Assembly: GCF_001641085.1 (NCBI RefSeq)
Contig: NZ_LXIE01000001.1
Coordinates: forward strand, 1-64,000
From: Aequorivita soesokkakensis
GTDB lineage: Bacteria > Bacteroidota > Bacteroidia > Flavobacteriales > Flavobacteriaceae
Direction: 5' to 3'
Length of the DNA stretch: 64,000 nt
Part shown: positions 7,195-12,255 of the stretch, piece after piece
Layout: each line of letters starts with the position of its first letter
Numbering within the stretch: the first letter of the stretch is position 1
The notes under the pieces: generated by a model
Told to the model about the DNA's origin: nothing
Databases searched by the model: none
What the model saw: the letters and a program-made list of their open reading frames with translations, nothing else
Position numbers and translations under genes: made by a program

Positions 7195-8394
7195 TTAAAA
7201 AATCAACAGATTGATATCGCTGTATGACATATTAAACCAATCTGCGACCGCTTTGTTTGTCAGAATTCCACGGTAAAAGTACAAACCATTTTTTAAACCA
7301 TTGTCAAAACGAATGGCATTCTCAAGTCCGCCACTTTCCGCAATTTCCAAAATATAAGGAGTGAAGATATTACTGATGGAAATAGAAGCTGTTTTAGGAT
7401 ATCTTGCCGGAATATTGGGCACCCCATAATGAATCACTTCGTGTTTTATAAATGTTGGGCAGTCGTGGCTTGTCATTTCCGTGGTTTCAAAGCAGCCACC
7501 CATATCTACGCAAACATCAATTATAACTGCACCTTTTTTCATATTCTGCACCATCTCCTCGGTAACAATAATTGGCGCTCTATTATGGCCGCGTACTGCC
7601 CCAATTGCAACATCACAGCGCAGAAGTGCTTTCATCAAATTTTTTGGCTGTACGGTTGAAGTATATAAAATGCGCCCCACATTTGTTTGAATGGTTCTTA
7701 ATTTGGTAATGGAACTATCAAAAACTTTTACATTGGCACCGAGGCCCAAGGCGGATCTAACTGCAAATTCGCCAACAGTTCCTGCGCCAATCACTACAAC
7801 CTCAATGGGAGGTACGCCACTGATATTTCCAAAAAGAAGTCCATTTCCTTTTTTTGCATTCACCATTAATTCGGCTGCAATAAGCACAGATGCGGTTCCG
7901 GCTATTTCGCTTAGCGCTTTCACGGCGGGATAGCTGTGGTCTTCATCTTTTATAAATTCAAAAGCTAAAGCAGTAATTTTCTTTTTGGCAAGAGCGTCAA
8001 AATAGGATTTTTGGCGAGTTTTTAATTGCAGTGCTGAAATCAGGACTGTTTTTGGTTTTATCATTTCCAGTTCCTCAAGGGTAGGGGGCTCTACCTTTAA
8101 AACCATCGGGCAACCGAAAACTTTTTTTGTATCCTTGGTTAATTGTGCTCCAGCTTCAGAATAATCTTTATCCGAAAATCCAGCTTCATCACCAGCGCCA
8201 TTCTCTATTAAAACTTTATGGCCGTTGTTAACAATAGCATTGACTGCATCAGGTGTGAGGCAAATTCTCTTTTCTTGGAAATAAGCTTCTTTGGGAATTC
8301 CTATATAAAGCTCTCCTTTTTGTCTTGCTATTTCAAGAGTTTCCTCCTGTGGAAGTAATTGCGCTCTTGTAAATGGTGATTTTGGTTGTGGCAT
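7195..8394 (-). CDS. ald: Alanine dehydrogenase
   Basis: This 399-residue NAD-dependent enzyme interconverts alanine and pyruvate plus ammonia. The N-terminal domain has the family start IGIPKEAYFQEKRICLTP. The central nucleotide-binding fold shows VVIGAGTVGEFAVRSA, and the segment VIIDVCVDMGGCFET matches the later conserved region. The C-terminal part returns to the catalytic domain. An NAD(P) transhydrogenase alpha subunit is the main alternative because the folds are shared, but there is no beta-subunit partner nearby. It may be read from the membrane-protein unit upstream (60-base gap) and into the DUF4258-like gene downstream. Confidence 0.88.
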   Translation of the reverse strand: MPQPKSPFTRAQLLPQEETLEIARQKGELYIGIPKEAYFQEKRICLTPDAVNAIVNNGHKVLIENGAGDEAGFSDKDYSEAGAQLTKDTKKVFGCPMVLKVEPPTLEELEMIKPKTVLISALQLKTRQKSYFDALAKKKITALAFEFIKDEDHSYPAVKALSEIAGTASVLIAAELMVNAKKGNGLLFGNISGVPPIEVVVIGAGTVGEFAVRSALGLGANVKVFDSSITKLRTIQTNVGRILYTSTVQPKNLMKALLRCDVAIGAVRGHNRAPIIVTEEMVQNMKKGAVIIDVCVDMGGCFETTEMTSHDCPTFIKHEVIHYGVPNIPARYPKTASISISNIFTPYILEIAESGGLENAIRFDNGLKNGLYFYRGILTNKAVADWFNMSYSDINLLIF

Positions 8395-8454: not shown

Positions 8455-8988
8455 TTACCGAAATAGGTCTTTTAATTGCTGCCAAAACGATCTTTTTTGA
8501 AAAAGTTCTTCTTCATAAGATTTTAAATCGTTCTGCCTCATTTGGCTAAATATCTTGGCGCGGATTAAATAAACGAAGGGTACCAATACCATCATTATGG
8601 GGATTACGTAAATTATTTCAACTTCATCAGCATTTAAGTTTTGTTTTAAAATGTTGAAAAGCTGAAAAACATACATGGATAAAGGAACTAATATTATCCA
8701 ATGCCACCAATGTTTACAGGTAAAAAACCAGATAAGCAATAGAATTACAGGAATAACCTTGCCCATTAAAAACCAGGCATATTGATATAAAGAAAGATAT
8801 TTGGTTGTAAATGTAAAATAAGAAGTTTCCCAAACTTGTGTGTTGCTTGGGAAACTCTCATAAGCGTAATATATAAAAGGGGTGCAAGCCATTATAAAAA
8901 CAATGATGCCTCCCTGTATAAGGCTTTTCTTATCCGGCTGGCGGAACTGAAACCGTTCTAACGTCGATTTGTTGCGGGGTTTGTTCAT
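8455..8988 (-). CDS. Four-helix inner-membrane protein, copy A
   Basis: This 177-residue protein has four predicted membrane helices (about 25-42, 70-90, 95-112 and 125-142). Its C-terminal tail ends KSYEEELFQKRSFWQQLKDLF and probably forms a cytoplasmic helix. The ATG at 8988 lies inside the short lipoprotein-like ORF at 8930-9070 and in a different frame, giving a 59-base overlap. It is a clear paralogue of the protein at 9429-9941: shared KHWW motif, shared AFQLFN/VFQLFN and the same tail. An extended TTG start at 9018 is possible but less likely. Function unknown. Confidence 0.7.
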   Translation of the reverse strand: MNKPRNKSTLERFQFRQPDKKSLIQGGIIVFIMACTPFIYYAYESFPSNTQVWETSYFTFTTKYLSLYQYAWFLMGKVIPVILLLIWFFTCKHWWHWIILVPLSMYVFQLFNILKQNLNADEVEIIYVIPIMMVLVPFVYLIRAKIFSQMRQNDLKSYEEELFQKRSFWQQLKDLFR

Positions 8989-9070
8989 CTTGGATTCCTT
9001 CTGGGGTACAAGAAGCAAAAAGTCCTACGGCAAAAATAGCGGCTACGATAATCAATTTTAGGTTTTTCAT
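8930..9070 (-). CDS. 46-residue lipoprotein-like peptide, copy A
   Basis: This is a short ORF with a lysine start, a hydrophobic core and a cysteine at residue 21 in LFASC. That is close to a lipobox, with F at -3. After the cysteine come TPEGIQDEQTPQQI and a proline-rich end, PPAG. The promoter box TAAGTTTG lies 32 bases upstream. Its final 59 bases are also read in another frame as the start of the membrane protein. The paralogous copy at 9883-10023 has the same length and the same overlap, which supports it as a real gene. The mature lipopeptide would be only about 26 residues. Confidence 0.6.
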   Translation of the reverse strand: MKNLKLIIVAAIFAVGLFASCTPEGIQDEQTPQQIDVRTVSVPPAG

Positions 9071-9428
9071 AATAATAAGTTTTTGTGAGGTTAATATGGG
9101 TCAAACTTACATGCAAAAAACTTAAGTATAATAATTATGTTAATTGTACCTTTACAGGTTATAATGCAAATAAATACTTTAAAATACTCTTTTAGTGTGG
9201 CTTTAAAGTTAATATTTTAACATTGCTGCAAAACCTGTATTTTTTATTTCATATAGCCAGTATTATTAATGTTAAAGACTTCTCCTCTTTTTTGGTTTTT
9301 TAATTGTTTTGGGGACTTATTTTTTTAAAAACAAAAGCCTATATTTTACACTGTAGATGTAAAAATACTTCTGAATTTTTGACGGACTAATGTACGTATT
9401 TAATTTTAAATTATAGGGAAGGGAATAT
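9071..9428. other. Intergenic region between the two paralogous pairs
   Basis: About 360 AT-rich bases. It holds the promoter of pair A (-7 box at 9102-9109, minus strand). No convincing terminator, RNA gene or coding sequence is seen. A 63-codon frame at 9317-9508 overlaps copy B and has no coding character. Confidence 0.6.
9102..9109 (-). promoter_or_regulatory. -7 box of pair A
   Basis: On the minus strand this reads TAAGTTTG. The leader between it and the ATG at 9070 carries AACCTCACAAAAACTTAT, which is almost identical to that of pair B, so the promoter and leader were duplicated along with the genes. Confidence 0.5.
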
Positions 9429-9941
9429 TTAGAAAAGATCTTTGATTTGTTGCCAGAAGTTTTTTTGTGTCCCCAGTTCCTCTTCAAAGCTTTTAAGATC
9501 CTTGCCAATTAACTTGTTTGAAAGCTTGGCTTTTATTAGATATACTAACGGTATAATAACCAGCATAATTGGGAAAAGCCACCATATTTCAACTTCATCG
9601 GTAATGTGTACATCATCGTTAATTACATTAAAAAGTTGAAATGCAAACATCCCTGTAGGAATCAAGATTACGTGGTACCACCAATGTTTGCAAGTTATAA
9701 ACCAGATAACTAAAAGAAGCAATGGTACAAACTTCCCCATCATTGTCCATACGGAGACCTGTACCTTTTGATACCAATCAGCATCGTATGTAAATAAAAA
9801 AGTTTCCCACGTTTTGTCTTGTGGAAAACTTTCATATGAATAAAAAATATAGGGTGTTGCTGCTATTATTAGCGCAATAATACTACCCGTGACTAGGGAT
9901 GATGATGTCGCTTTTCTTGATTTGTTGGGGTGATTGCTCAT
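9429..9941 (-). CDS. Four-helix inner-membrane protein, copy B
   Basis: This 170-residue paralogue of the protein at 8455-8988 has the same four-helix layout, the CKHWW motif and the tail KSFEEELGTQKNFWQQIKDLF. The ATG at 9941 is embedded in the short lipoprotein-like ORF at 9883-10023 in a different frame, again with a 59-base overlap. The N-terminal 20 residues differ strongly from copy A, while the membrane core is well kept. This fits weaker selection on the overlapped segment in this frame. Function unknown. Confidence 0.7.
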   Translation of the reverse strand: MSNHPNKSRKATSSSLVTGSIIALIIAATPYIFYSYESFPQDKTWETFLFTYDADWYQKVQVSVWTMMGKFVPLLLLVIWFITCKHWWYHVILIPTGMFAFQLFNVINDDVHITDEVEIWWLFPIMLVIIPLVYLIKAKLSNKLIGKDLKSFEEELGTQKNFWQQIKDLF

Positions 9942-10023
9942 CTTGGATGCTTTCTGGGGTGCAAGAAGCAAAGGTTCCTAGTGAAAAAATTGCTACGATA
10001 ATAAAGTACTTTACAGTTTTCAT
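9883..10023 (-). CDS. 46-residue lipoprotein-like peptide, copy B
   Basis: This ORF has the same size and architecture as copy A: hydrophobic leader, C21 in TFASC, then TPESIQDEQSPQQI, ending in PSHG. The region around the cysteine and the DEQ-PQQI segment is kept between the copies, and the last 10 residues vary. Its end overlaps the membrane-protein start by 59 bases. It is probably an outer- or inner-membrane lipopeptide, but it could also be a leader whose translation opens the downstream start. Confidence 0.6.
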   Translation of the reverse strand: MKTVKYFIIVAIFSLGTFASCTPESIQDEQSPQQIKKSDIIIPSHG

Positions 10024-10053
10024 AATATATAAGTTTTTGTGAGGTTAATAGTT

Positions 10054-10061
10054 CAAACTTA
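10054..10061 (-). promoter_or_regulatory. -7 box of pair B
   Basis: On the minus strand this is TAAGTTTG, identical to the box of pair A and at nearly the same distance from the start codon. Confidence 0.5.
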
Positions 10062-10204: not shown

Positions 10205-10618
10205 TTATTTCACTGGCATTAGTTTTAAGGTTCTACTTCCGTTTTTATTTTTTGTAATGTATATATTATCTGTGTTGTCTGGCAAAAGCTTATCAATTTT
10301 CTCTGGCCATTCTATAAGATTATAATTTCCACTGTAAAGATAATCTTCAACCCCAATGTCATAAGCCTCTGAAATGCCTTCGATTCTATAAAAGTCAAAG
10401 TGGTATATTACGTTTTGTGGGGTATGATATTCATTCACAATTGAAAATGAAGGGCTGCTTGATATTTCATCAACGCCTAGTTGTTTGACAATCTCCTTAA
10501 TCAACGTAGTTTTTCCAACCCCCATATCGCCATAGAAAAGCAATATTTTTGAGGCTGTTGAGGCTAAGATTTGTTCAGCAACTTTGGAAATTTCGATTTG
10601 GGTATATGTAAGTTCCAT
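10205..10618 (-). CDS. tsaE: tRNA t6A biosynthesis ATPase TsaE
   Basis: This 137-residue P-loop protein is the energising partner of TsaB and TsaD in making N6-threonylcarbamoyladenosine at position 37 of ANN-decoding tRNAs. The Walker A motif is GDMGVGKTT (30-38). Other family segments are SSPSFSIVNEY, the HFDFYRI motif and LIEWPEKI near the C-terminus. It lies 86 bases downstream of porX on the same strand. Confidence 0.92.
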   Translation of the reverse strand: MELTYTQIEISKVAEQILASTASKILLFYGDMGVGKTTLIKEIVKQLGVDEISSSPSFSIVNEYHTPQNVIYHFDFYRIEGISEAYDIGVEDYLYSGNYNLIEWPEKIDKLLPDNTDNIYITKNKNGSRTLKLMPVK

Positions 10619-10704: not shown

Positions 10705-12255
10705 TTATCTCGGCACTAATACTGAAAATGGAATAATCATTTCTTCCAAAGAAACTCCTCCATGCTGATATGTATTTCTATAATAACTTACATAATGGTT
10801 GTAATTATTTGGATAGGCAAAAAAGTAATCGCCTTTGGCAAAAATAAAGGAGCTGCTCATGTTTATTGTAGGTAAATTGATAGCTTTTGGGTCCTTGGCG
10901 GCAAGCACTTCTTTATCTTCATAGGTCAAACTTTTTCCAGTCTTGTATCTTAAATTAAGACTGGTGTTTTTATCGCCTATCACTTTTGAAGGATTTTTCA
11001 CATTAATGGTTCCATGGTCTGTTGTTATTATCAATTTGAAACCCAATCGTGCTGCTTGTTGAATAATTTCAAGCAATGGTGAATTTTTGAACCAACTCTG
11101 TGTTAATGATCTATATGATTTGTCGTTTGAAGCGAGTTCTTTAATCACCTCCATCTCTGTTTTAGAGTGGGAAAGCATATCCACGAAATTATAAACCACC
11201 ACCGTTAAGTCTTCATCTTTATGGCTTCTAAAGTTTTCTACAAGTTTTTTTCCTTGTTTCAAACTTGAAATTTTATGATAACTCCAATTCAAATTTAAAC
11301 CTAAACGTTTCAGCTGTGCGGCAAGAAACTCTTCCTCTTTCATATTTTTCCCGCCATCCTCAGTATCGTTCAGCCATAAATCTGGATGCAGTTTTTCCAT
11401 CTCGCTGGGCATCAATCCTGAAAAAATGGCATTTCGCGCATACTGTGTGGCCGTGGGCAGAATGCTGCAGAAAAGTTCTTCCGAAGTCTTTTTATAAATA
11501 TTTGCAACCGTTGGCTCAAAGGCTTTCCATTGGTCAAACCTCAAATTATCAACAACTACCAATAATGTTGGCACACCCTGCTGTAATTGGGGCTGTATTT
11601 TTTCGCGAAAAAGCGTATGGGACATGGTAGGCGCGTCACTTGGGTCACTGAACCATTTTGGATAATTTTTATCAATAAACTTACAAAACTGGCTGTTGGC
11701 TTCTGTTTTCTGTGACTCCAATATCTCAAACATTCCGGAATCTTCAATGTTTTCAAGCTCCAATTCCCAATAAATCAGTTTCTGATAAAGGTCTTTCCAT
11801 TCCTCAAAACTGTTCACCATAGAAAGATCCATCGCTATCTTTCTAAATTCCTGCTGATAGTTTGAAGTGGTTTTTTCTGAAACCAACCTGCTATGGTCCA
11901 GATTTTTCTTTAGACTAAGTAGAATTTGGTTTGGGTTTACAGGCTTTATAAGGTAATCGGCTATTTTAGAACCAATGGCTTCCTCCATTATATATTCCTC
12001 TTCACTTTTAGTTATCATCACTACGGGAATGGAAGCTTGTTGCTCCTTTATTTCCGCAAGGGTTTCAAGTCCGGTAAGACCTGGCATATTTTCGTCTAAA
12101 AAAACGATATCAAAAGTTTCTTTTTTTATTTCTTCCAATGCCTCTGTACCGCTCTGTGCCGTAGTTACTTTGTAGTTTTTATTTTCAAGGAAAAGAATGT
12201 GTGGTTTAAGCAAATCTATCTCATCATCTACCCATAGTACTTTTATGTCGCTCAT
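10705..12255 (-). CDS. porX: PorX-type response regulator with PglZ domain
   Basis: This 516-residue protein has an N-terminal receiver domain with acidic pocket D10-D11, phosphoacceptor D54 and the conserved lysine in YLIKPVNP. A linker is followed by a C-terminal PglZ (alkaline-phosphatase-fold) domain with VVVDNLRFDQWKAFEP, an AIFSGLMPSEM segment and ITTDHGTI. In Bacteroidota, PorX together with the sensor PorY controls genes of the type IX secretion system, and the PglZ domain has nucleotide phosphodiesterase activity. PorY is not in this window. A type IX-sorted protein is encoded at 41425-42438. Confidence 0.9.
   Translation of the reverse strand: MSDIKVLWVDDEIDLLKPHILFLENKNYKVTTAQSGTEALEEIKKETFDIVFLDENMPGLTGLETLAEIKEQQASIPVVMITKSEEEYIMEEAIGSKIADYLIKPVNPNQILLSLKKNLDHSRLVSEKTTSNYQQEFRKIAMDLSMVNSFEEWKDLYQKLIYWELELENIEDSGMFEILESQKTEANSQFCKFIDKNYPKWFSDPSDAPTMSHTLFREKIQPQLQQGVPTLLVVVDNLRFDQWKAFEPTVANIYKKTSEELFCSILPTATQYARNAIFSGLMPSEMEKLHPDLWLNDTEDGGKNMKEEEFLAAQLKRLGLNLNWSYHKISSLKQGKKLVENFRSHKDEDLTVVVYNFVDMLSHSKTEMEVIKELASNDKSYRSLTQSWFKNSPLLEIIQQAARLGFKLIITTDHGTINVKNPSKVIGDKNTSLNLRYKTGKSLTYEDKEVLAAKDPKAINLPTINMSSSFIFAKGDYFFAYPNNYNHYVSYYRNTYQHGGVSLEEMIIPFSVLVPR

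Follow-up and report, generated by a model that had tools for sequence, protein, structure and literature searches.

Overlapping genes for a small signal-bearing peptide and a four-helix membrane protein in Aequorivita soesokkakensis and other Flavobacteriaceae: a candidate pheromone-like signalling pair

Results

Two tandem units of one plan

The window analysed here, the first 64,000 nucleotides of contig NZ_LXIE01000001.1 of Aequorivita soesokkakensis, carries two tandem units on its minus strand, each composed of a short peptide gene and a membrane protein gene, lying by our reading of the ORFs between genes that we take to be tsaE and ald, with a presumed porX farther upstream (Table 1). 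The two units were described as sharing one plan in the first-pass annotation, and the 46-codon ORFs, the cysteine at residue 21, the TAAGTTTG boxes and the 59-nt overlaps are indeed found in both, with one cysteine in each peptide. The membrane proteins are only 49% identical over residues 14–176, so the duplication that gave rise to the units is old.

Table 1. Features of the two units and their neighbours, in positions of the window.
Feature	Position	Strand	Description
Peptide gene 1	8930..9070	(-)	46 codons; lipoprotein-type signal, Cys 21; tail QQIDVRTVSVPPAG
Membrane protein 1	8455..8988	(-)	177 aa; four predicted TM helices; ATG at 8988
59-nt overlap 1	8930..8988	(-)	One frame is the peptide C-terminal unit, the other the membrane N-terminal tail
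Box 1, TAAGTTTG	9102..9109	(-)	Fits TAnnTTTG; 39 nt before peptide ATG 1
Peptide gene 2	9883..10023	(-)	46 codons; lipoprotein-type signal, Cys 21; tail QQIKKSDIIIPSHG
Membrane protein 2	9429..9941	(-)	170 aa; paralogue of membrane protein 1; ATG at 9941
59-nt overlap 2	9883..9941	(-)	Peptide gene 2 / membrane protein 2
Box 2, TAAGTTTG	10054..10061	(-)	Fits TAnnTTTG; 38 nt before peptide ATG 2
ald	7195..8394	(-)	Presumably alanine dehydrogenase (name read from the sequence); conserved neighbour downstream; synteny across relatives
tsaE	10205..10618	(-)	Presumed tsaE (name read from the sequence); conserved neighbour upstream; synteny across relatives
porX	10705..12255	(-)	Presumed response regulator with PglZ-like domain (name read from the sequence); next gene upstream of tsaE; order repeated in extended loci of relatives

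The motif TAnnTTTG is the -7 box of Bacteroidota promoters. The boxes proposed as promoters of the two units conform to it, and in 198 of 222 pairs a TAnnTTTG is found no more than 100 nt upstream of the peptide start (median distance, 38 nt), compared with a background of 6.6% in mononucleotide shuffles and of 23/228 inside the peptide gene in an earlier set. A scan for sigma-70-type promoters gave no excess (9 vs 9.0). The simplest reading is that both genes would be carried on one transcript.

Distribution and pairing

The closest named relatives among 70 loci are those of Aequorivita, with identities of up to 91%. The membrane family was matched in 140 of 199 sampled Flavobacteriaceae genomes, in 15 of 246 genomes of an order-wide draw (four outside Flavobacteriaceae, two of those four weak), and in 10 of 345 genomes of a phylum-wide draw, all ten of them Flavobacteriaceae. 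Genus g127, with 15 genomes in the order-wide list, yielded no match to the family. Unit 1 is present in all 20 of the Aequorivita-type loci used and unit 2 in 17, some of these loci being incomplete.

A signal-like short ORF, as judged by a hydrophobicity and K/R rule on the N-terminus, lies just upstream of 222 of 223 full-type single-domain membrane members, a count that still includes close relatives, with full-type members separated from diverged ones at E 1e-33, a threshold chosen after the listing had been inspected. Members with at least 420 nt of upstream sequence were taken, and collapsing of contained or near-identical rows reduced 276 rows to 262. The same finder reported a short ORF before 5 of 183 tsaE, 3 of 67 porX and 8 of 157 ald starts (3–5%), the raw ald figure being 41/157, from which 33 pieces of the membrane ORF itself were excluded. 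The sole miss, L365, is a gene also present in L359; there, a four-unit precursor starts too far upstream (~410 nt) for the finder to reach.

Membrane homologues that lack the short ORF, which the first-pass annotation had named as evidence against its view, do occur, but only among diverged and two-domain members and not in the full type. Seven of 20 diverged members scored, five with real peptides and two with pieces of a neighbouring membrane gene, and one of 19 two-domain members scored spuriously, these three matches having been judged spurious by eye; a real peptide is absent from 15/20 diverged and 19/19 two-domain members (34 paralogues). Among 216 peptide-bearing members of an earlier count, some at incomplete loci, tsaE lies upstream of 202, ald downstream of 164, and both flank 155. 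In 11 picked genomes that lack a membrane match, neither the peptide nor the membrane gene was seen upstream of ald, with tsaE upstream of ald in 10 of the 11. In L372, one of these 10, an acetyltransferase-like ORF lies between tsaE and ald. The near-complete pairing in the full type and the joint absence from the 11 inspected genomes support, at the level of sequence, the view of the first-pass annotation that the peptide and membrane genes form one functional module.

The overlap and selection in each frame

Pairs without a usable membrane ATG (21 of 222) were left out of the overlap count, and of the 201 measurable pairs 159 overlap. The overlap spans 59 nt in 84 pairs, 56 in 23, 53 in 16 and 50 in 11, with other lengths rarer, and is 2 mod 3 in all 159; its length varies with the choice of in-frame ATG, its phase does not. 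Across the Aequorivita-type loci, counting the window, the two start codons and the stop of the short ORF lie in gap-free register in 21/21 cases for unit 1 and 18/18 for unit 2, and the 59-base overlap is conserved in both units, as had been proposed. Persistence across the family is partial, with one phase kept in 159/201 pairs but no overlap in the other 42. A programmed frameshift fusion as a general rule is ruled out by these 42 pairs. Mapped onto a tree (198 thinned rows from the earlier set, built before row collapse), the minimum number of changes is 6 for the overlap state, 14 for the lipobox and 6 for the repeat state.

Omega-like ratios, calculated from consensus-based counts over Aequorivita-type orthologues rather than from a codon model, are 0.22 (unit 1) and 0.30 (unit 2) for the short ORF ahead of the overlap, against 1.6–2.1 for wrong-frame controls, and on these counts purifying selection acts on the short ORF. 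Chance or annotation noise as the origin of the short ORF is ruled out by this selection together with the 222/223 pairing. Within the overlap, the short frame gives ratios of 0.49 (P 0.027) and 0.43 (P 0.018), whereas the membrane frame, at 1.24 (P 0.74) and 0.76 (P 0.31), displays no clear constraint by the same Aequorivita-type ratios. With the short frame constrained and the membrane frame not clearly so, the peptide tail is the conserved reading of the overlap, leaving the membrane N-terminus free to vary provided that it stays open. The first-pass annotation had taken conservation of the overlap to suggest selection for coupled expression; an overlap essential in itself is not borne out, as it is missing in 42/201 pairs, its state changes 6 or more times on the tree, and the membrane frame displays no clear constraint within it.

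The peptide and its tail unit

A lipobox is present in 139 of 222 peptides, with the remaining 83 bearing a type I-like signal without one. The earlier description of the short product as lipoprotein-like therefore holds for most of the family but is too narrow, the cysteine not being general. Most peptides retain a C-terminal unit of the form [IV][DE][KR]xxIxxPxxG, the tail ending in P-x(1-3)-G-x(0-3) in 154/222, and in many genera the unit is near-constant.

The tail unit is repeated in 14/222 precursors (12/198 thinned rows), with 2–6 copies in several lineages, among them six copies of IDKFQKPPKHG in L147, four of VDKTQLINGDKK in L239 and three of VDRTKIINGDKKS in L110. Six species of genus g94 carry differing units or copy numbers at one locus, as do three species of genus g80. 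Codon differences among repeat units are mostly silent, with a pooled pN/pS of 0.051 over 15 precursors, a value that leans low, as units were found by a 5–6 residue pattern, excluding diverged units such as those of L224 (11 silent and 19 replacement codon differences) and the first unit of L361. Unit pairs in this comparison lack independence, and L303, which has two units, by itself yields a pN of 0.14 against a pS of 0.35. In the first membrane family, all 12 thinned repeat precursors belong to non-overlapping pairs, with none among 145 overlapping ones, as expected if the overlap blocks expansion; the repeat precursors L303 and L335, which lie beside other membrane proteins, are contrary cases that do overlap.

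The membrane protein

The AlphaFold2 model of the membrane protein (mean pLDDT 72.9) contains helices at residues 21–42, 67–90, 96–114 and 125–150, a small hairpin between helices 1 and 2, and two C-terminal helices, with the basic ends suggesting that both termini lie inside. Conserved positions comprise Y41, Y43, P47 and E54 at or after the first helix, the motif W87-F88-x-T90-C91-K92-x-W94-W95, and D121/E124 in loop 3. Scans against Pfam and NCBIfam gave no match above cut-off and placed no sensor, kinase or DNA-binding family on the protein, a Foldseek search of the model against PDB and BFVD gave no E below 0.9, and PADLOC anti-phage HMMs matched 0 families at E up to 0.1 across 6 proteins.

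Distances between peptide units track those between periplasmic loops (partial Mantel r 0.20, P 0.001, with TM distance fixed, 156 pairs), whereas those between cytoplasmic parts do not (r -0.13). Partial Mantel tests are overly liberal when the sequences are related, the value of r is low, and the correlation of the periplasmic loops with the peptide tail is no more than a hint.

A second membrane family and further modules

A third pair lies elsewhere in the genome of the window, on C1 near position 465,510 (L255:1498-2176), where the gene for a 54-aa lipoprotein with QSIDKEKVCPPSDRN overlaps that for a 200-aa four-helix-like protein by 89 nt. This pair adjoins hisS-like and XerC-like genes, named by eye. 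Its membrane family was found in 9/199 genomes, and in 10/10 loci found the membrane gene is overlapped by one for a small lipoprotein whose tail is related. Homology between the first and second membrane families was undetected (hhalign probability 1.9%). The two peptide families match at E 2e-15 when signals are included, partly due to the shared signal, and trimmed to the motif alone they match with a probability of 31% and P 5e-4, compared with P 0.5 for a reversed control.

By hand tally, the overlap length is again 2 mod 3 in 16/16 modules outside the main locus, a tally that includes L283, itself a remote member of the first family, and that counts L335, L336 and L345 irrespective of membrane family. 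Of 20 regions fetched by a peptide profile search, 10 (L334–L338, L340, L345, L346, L350 and L353) hold an overlapping pair, with the other 10 holding a lone small lipoprotein or nothing clear. A second recurring locus (L334, L337, L346 and L353), beside a gene that is presumably mutS, encodes 40-aa peptides ending like QIDKDKIEIPPNG, paired with a divergent member of the first membrane family. L336 and L340 of one genome, and L345 of another, share nearly one leader with differing tails and partners.

Discussion

A putative peptide ligand and its membrane partner

We propose that the pair encodes a secreted peptide precursor and its cognate membrane partner, acting as a pheromone-like signalling pair, a reading drawn from comparative sequence data on which we find the balance about level. 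Gene 1 would produce a secreted precursor comprising a signal peptide, a short linker and, at the C-terminus, a unit of ~9–13 residues, with a type II signal and lipobox cysteine in most precursors and a type I-like signal in others. The C-terminal unit would be the functional part, present in 2–6 copies in some lineages. Gene 2, usually overlapping the end of gene 1 and perhaps coupled to it in translation, would supply a small four-helix inner-membrane partner whose periplasmic loops meet the peptide. Following export and cleavage, the peptide may serve as a ligand, released or displayed, that by binding its partner would alter the state of the membrane protein and hence of its conserved cytoplasmic tail, the most likely outcome being a pheromone-like self-sensing pair. 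More tentatively, such pairs could together form a Gram-negative peptide-hormone-like system, with prepropeptides of 1–6 near-identical units that take the Sec/lipoprotein route out and address their own four-helix receptors, mostly encoded by overlapping genes, and with several receptor families spread across Flavobacteriaceae.

Signalling would be in keeping with the pairing (222/223 against 3–5% in controls), the joint absence, the omega-like ratios of 0.22 and 0.30 and the repeat pN/pS of 0.051. Further points in its favour are the variation of units between congeneric species, the minimum of 6 repeat-state changes, the tracking of the periplasmic loops, and the existence of a second family with similar peptides. 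Against it, the membrane protein carries no recognised sensor, kinase or DNA-binding family and no fold match, and the analysis turned up neither a protease nor an exporter or response gene. Furthermore, the unit is near-constant in many genera, unlike that of a fast-changing pheromone, the lipobox precursors might stay membrane-anchored, and repeats are found in only 14/222 precursors, so that cleavage into a free peptide is not needed for most of them.

Alternative explanations

The strongest rivals to a signalling pair are an anchored subunit and a bacteriocin/immunity system. As an anchored subunit, which we consider somewhat improbable, the lipoprotein or periplasmic peptide would remain attached and regulate or stabilise the membrane protein, with repeats acting as binding sites on one tether. 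The lipobox in 139/222 peptides, the strict pairing with the membrane protein and the near-constant unit of many genera all accord with such a role. However, the lipobox is missing in 83/222 peptides, and the tree requires 14 or more changes in it, so that membrane anchoring is not needed. In addition, units differ between congeneric species, and near-identity among 3–6 units fits separate products equally well or better.

Were the unit instead to inhibit relatives, with the four-helix protein shielding the producer, the variability of units and partners would be accounted for, as would the nearly shared leader with differing tails and partners of L336, L340 and L345, the tandem module copies and lone membrane paralogues, and the patchy second membrane family (9/199 genomes). 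We nevertheless regard such a bacteriocin/immunity system as unlikely, given a main locus that is syntenic and a family present in 140/199 genomes. The precursors show no double-glycine leader, their signals ending instead by eye in a lipobox or an A-x-A-like site, and no ABC/C39-type exporter was recognised by eye among the ORFs of eight extended loci. Symporter-like and MFS-like ORFs are present in L147 and L149.

A toxin-antidote pair, with a membrane protein that is harmful unless the peptide is made, would resemble operons of this type in its order of antidote then toxin and its overlap, but seems very improbable alongside the stable synteny in most genera sampled, the 34 diverged or two-domain paralogues without a peptide, and repeat units that such a pair leaves unexplained. 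A purely translational leader, in which the short ORF only brings ribosomes to the membrane start, would suit the fixed phase in 159/159 overlapping pairs and the promoter-like box in 198/222, but is strongly disfavoured, to the point of being barely credible, by amino acid selection on the short ORF, its signal-like N-terminus, the silent divergence of repeat units (pN/pS 0.05) and the 42 non-overlapping pairs.

Comparison with known systems

Among described peptide signalling systems, the candidate signalling pair invites comparison with the RRNPP/Rap-Phr pairs of Bacillota, in which, as described in two reports, a small Sec-type propeptide is encoded beside a dedicated partner gene (PMC11343458; PMC10075063), some Phr propeptides carry tandemly duplicated pheromone units (PMC11343458), and the receptors are intracellular TPR proteins of 250–500 aa (PMC10075063). 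A small propeptide, an adjacent partner, tandem units in some precursors and several modules in some genomes are thus common to both. In contrast to the TPR receptors as reported there, the partner here is 170–180 aa in length with four predicted helices and no Pfam match above cut-off, and belongs to a Gram-negative family. The DAG-RiPPs or ChrA-type lipidated peptides of Bacteroidota are reported as short precursors that carry a signal peptide of type II or type I and conserve a C-terminal motif, CPxCGxG (PMC12636315). Our peptides resemble these in length, in signal types and in having a conserved C-terminal motif, but lack CPxCGxG, each window peptide containing one cysteine, and are partnered by a membrane protein; no MNIO enzyme was recognised adjacent, the window neighbours being read from their sequences as ald, tsaE and porX.

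Several near-identical units behind one signal peptide are also a feature of the yeast alpha-factor-like, Kex2-processed precursors, which are eukaryotic and are likened here by their shared multi-unit layout alone. Class II bacteriocin/immunity systems combine a small secreted peptide with a small multi-helix membrane protein and have shared leaders with differing cores; unlike their double-glycine leader, the signal here is Sec/lipoprotein-like and the core locus is conserved. In the NCBIfam comparisons, the window peptides scored 17.1 and 13.6 bits against the PG1828 family lipoprotein (NF050142; cut-off 50), with a short lipoprotein signal segment in common and no match past the first 31 residues; scores against the BhsA stress protein (NF047859; cut-off 90) were 18.6 and 18.5 bits.

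Multi-unit precursors with dedicated receptors belong to peptide signalling in Gram-positive bacteria and eukaryotes. If our proposal is correct, Flavobacteriaceae have a widespread counterpart made of two genes, which would make social behaviour in this family directly testable, with units of 9–13 residues that can be synthesised. Even as a bacteriocin/immunity or subunit system, the pair would represent a conserved family without a Pfam, NCBIfam or PADLOC match above cut-off, with a short gene that annotations can readily miss. No description of the pair was found in the open-access literature searched, and its recurrence, with up to six near-identical copies of the tail, hints at an undescribed bacterial peptide system.

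Additional loci

Several loci carry related genes in other arrangements. Peptide-less membrane copies, diverged and in L132 two-domain, are found in L132, L135, L136, L137 and L138. Mostly placed between ald and the main pair, they lie in the orientation opposite to that of the main pair and adjoin a short gene that is HTH-like by eye. L341, L347, L348 and L349 encode small lipoproteins whose tails are somewhat alike, with no overlapping membrane gene listed, that of L347 adjoining a regulator that is LytTR-like by eye. The four-unit precursor (VDKETMEKGSVG) of L359 (2385-2696) and L366, ~410 nt upstream of the membrane gene, adjoins several two-domain membrane copies. In L283 (1293-2178), from another family of the order, the gene for a 65-aa lipopeptide ending SGIDPRDIRIPSHG overlaps that for a 258-aa membrane protein by 89 nt.
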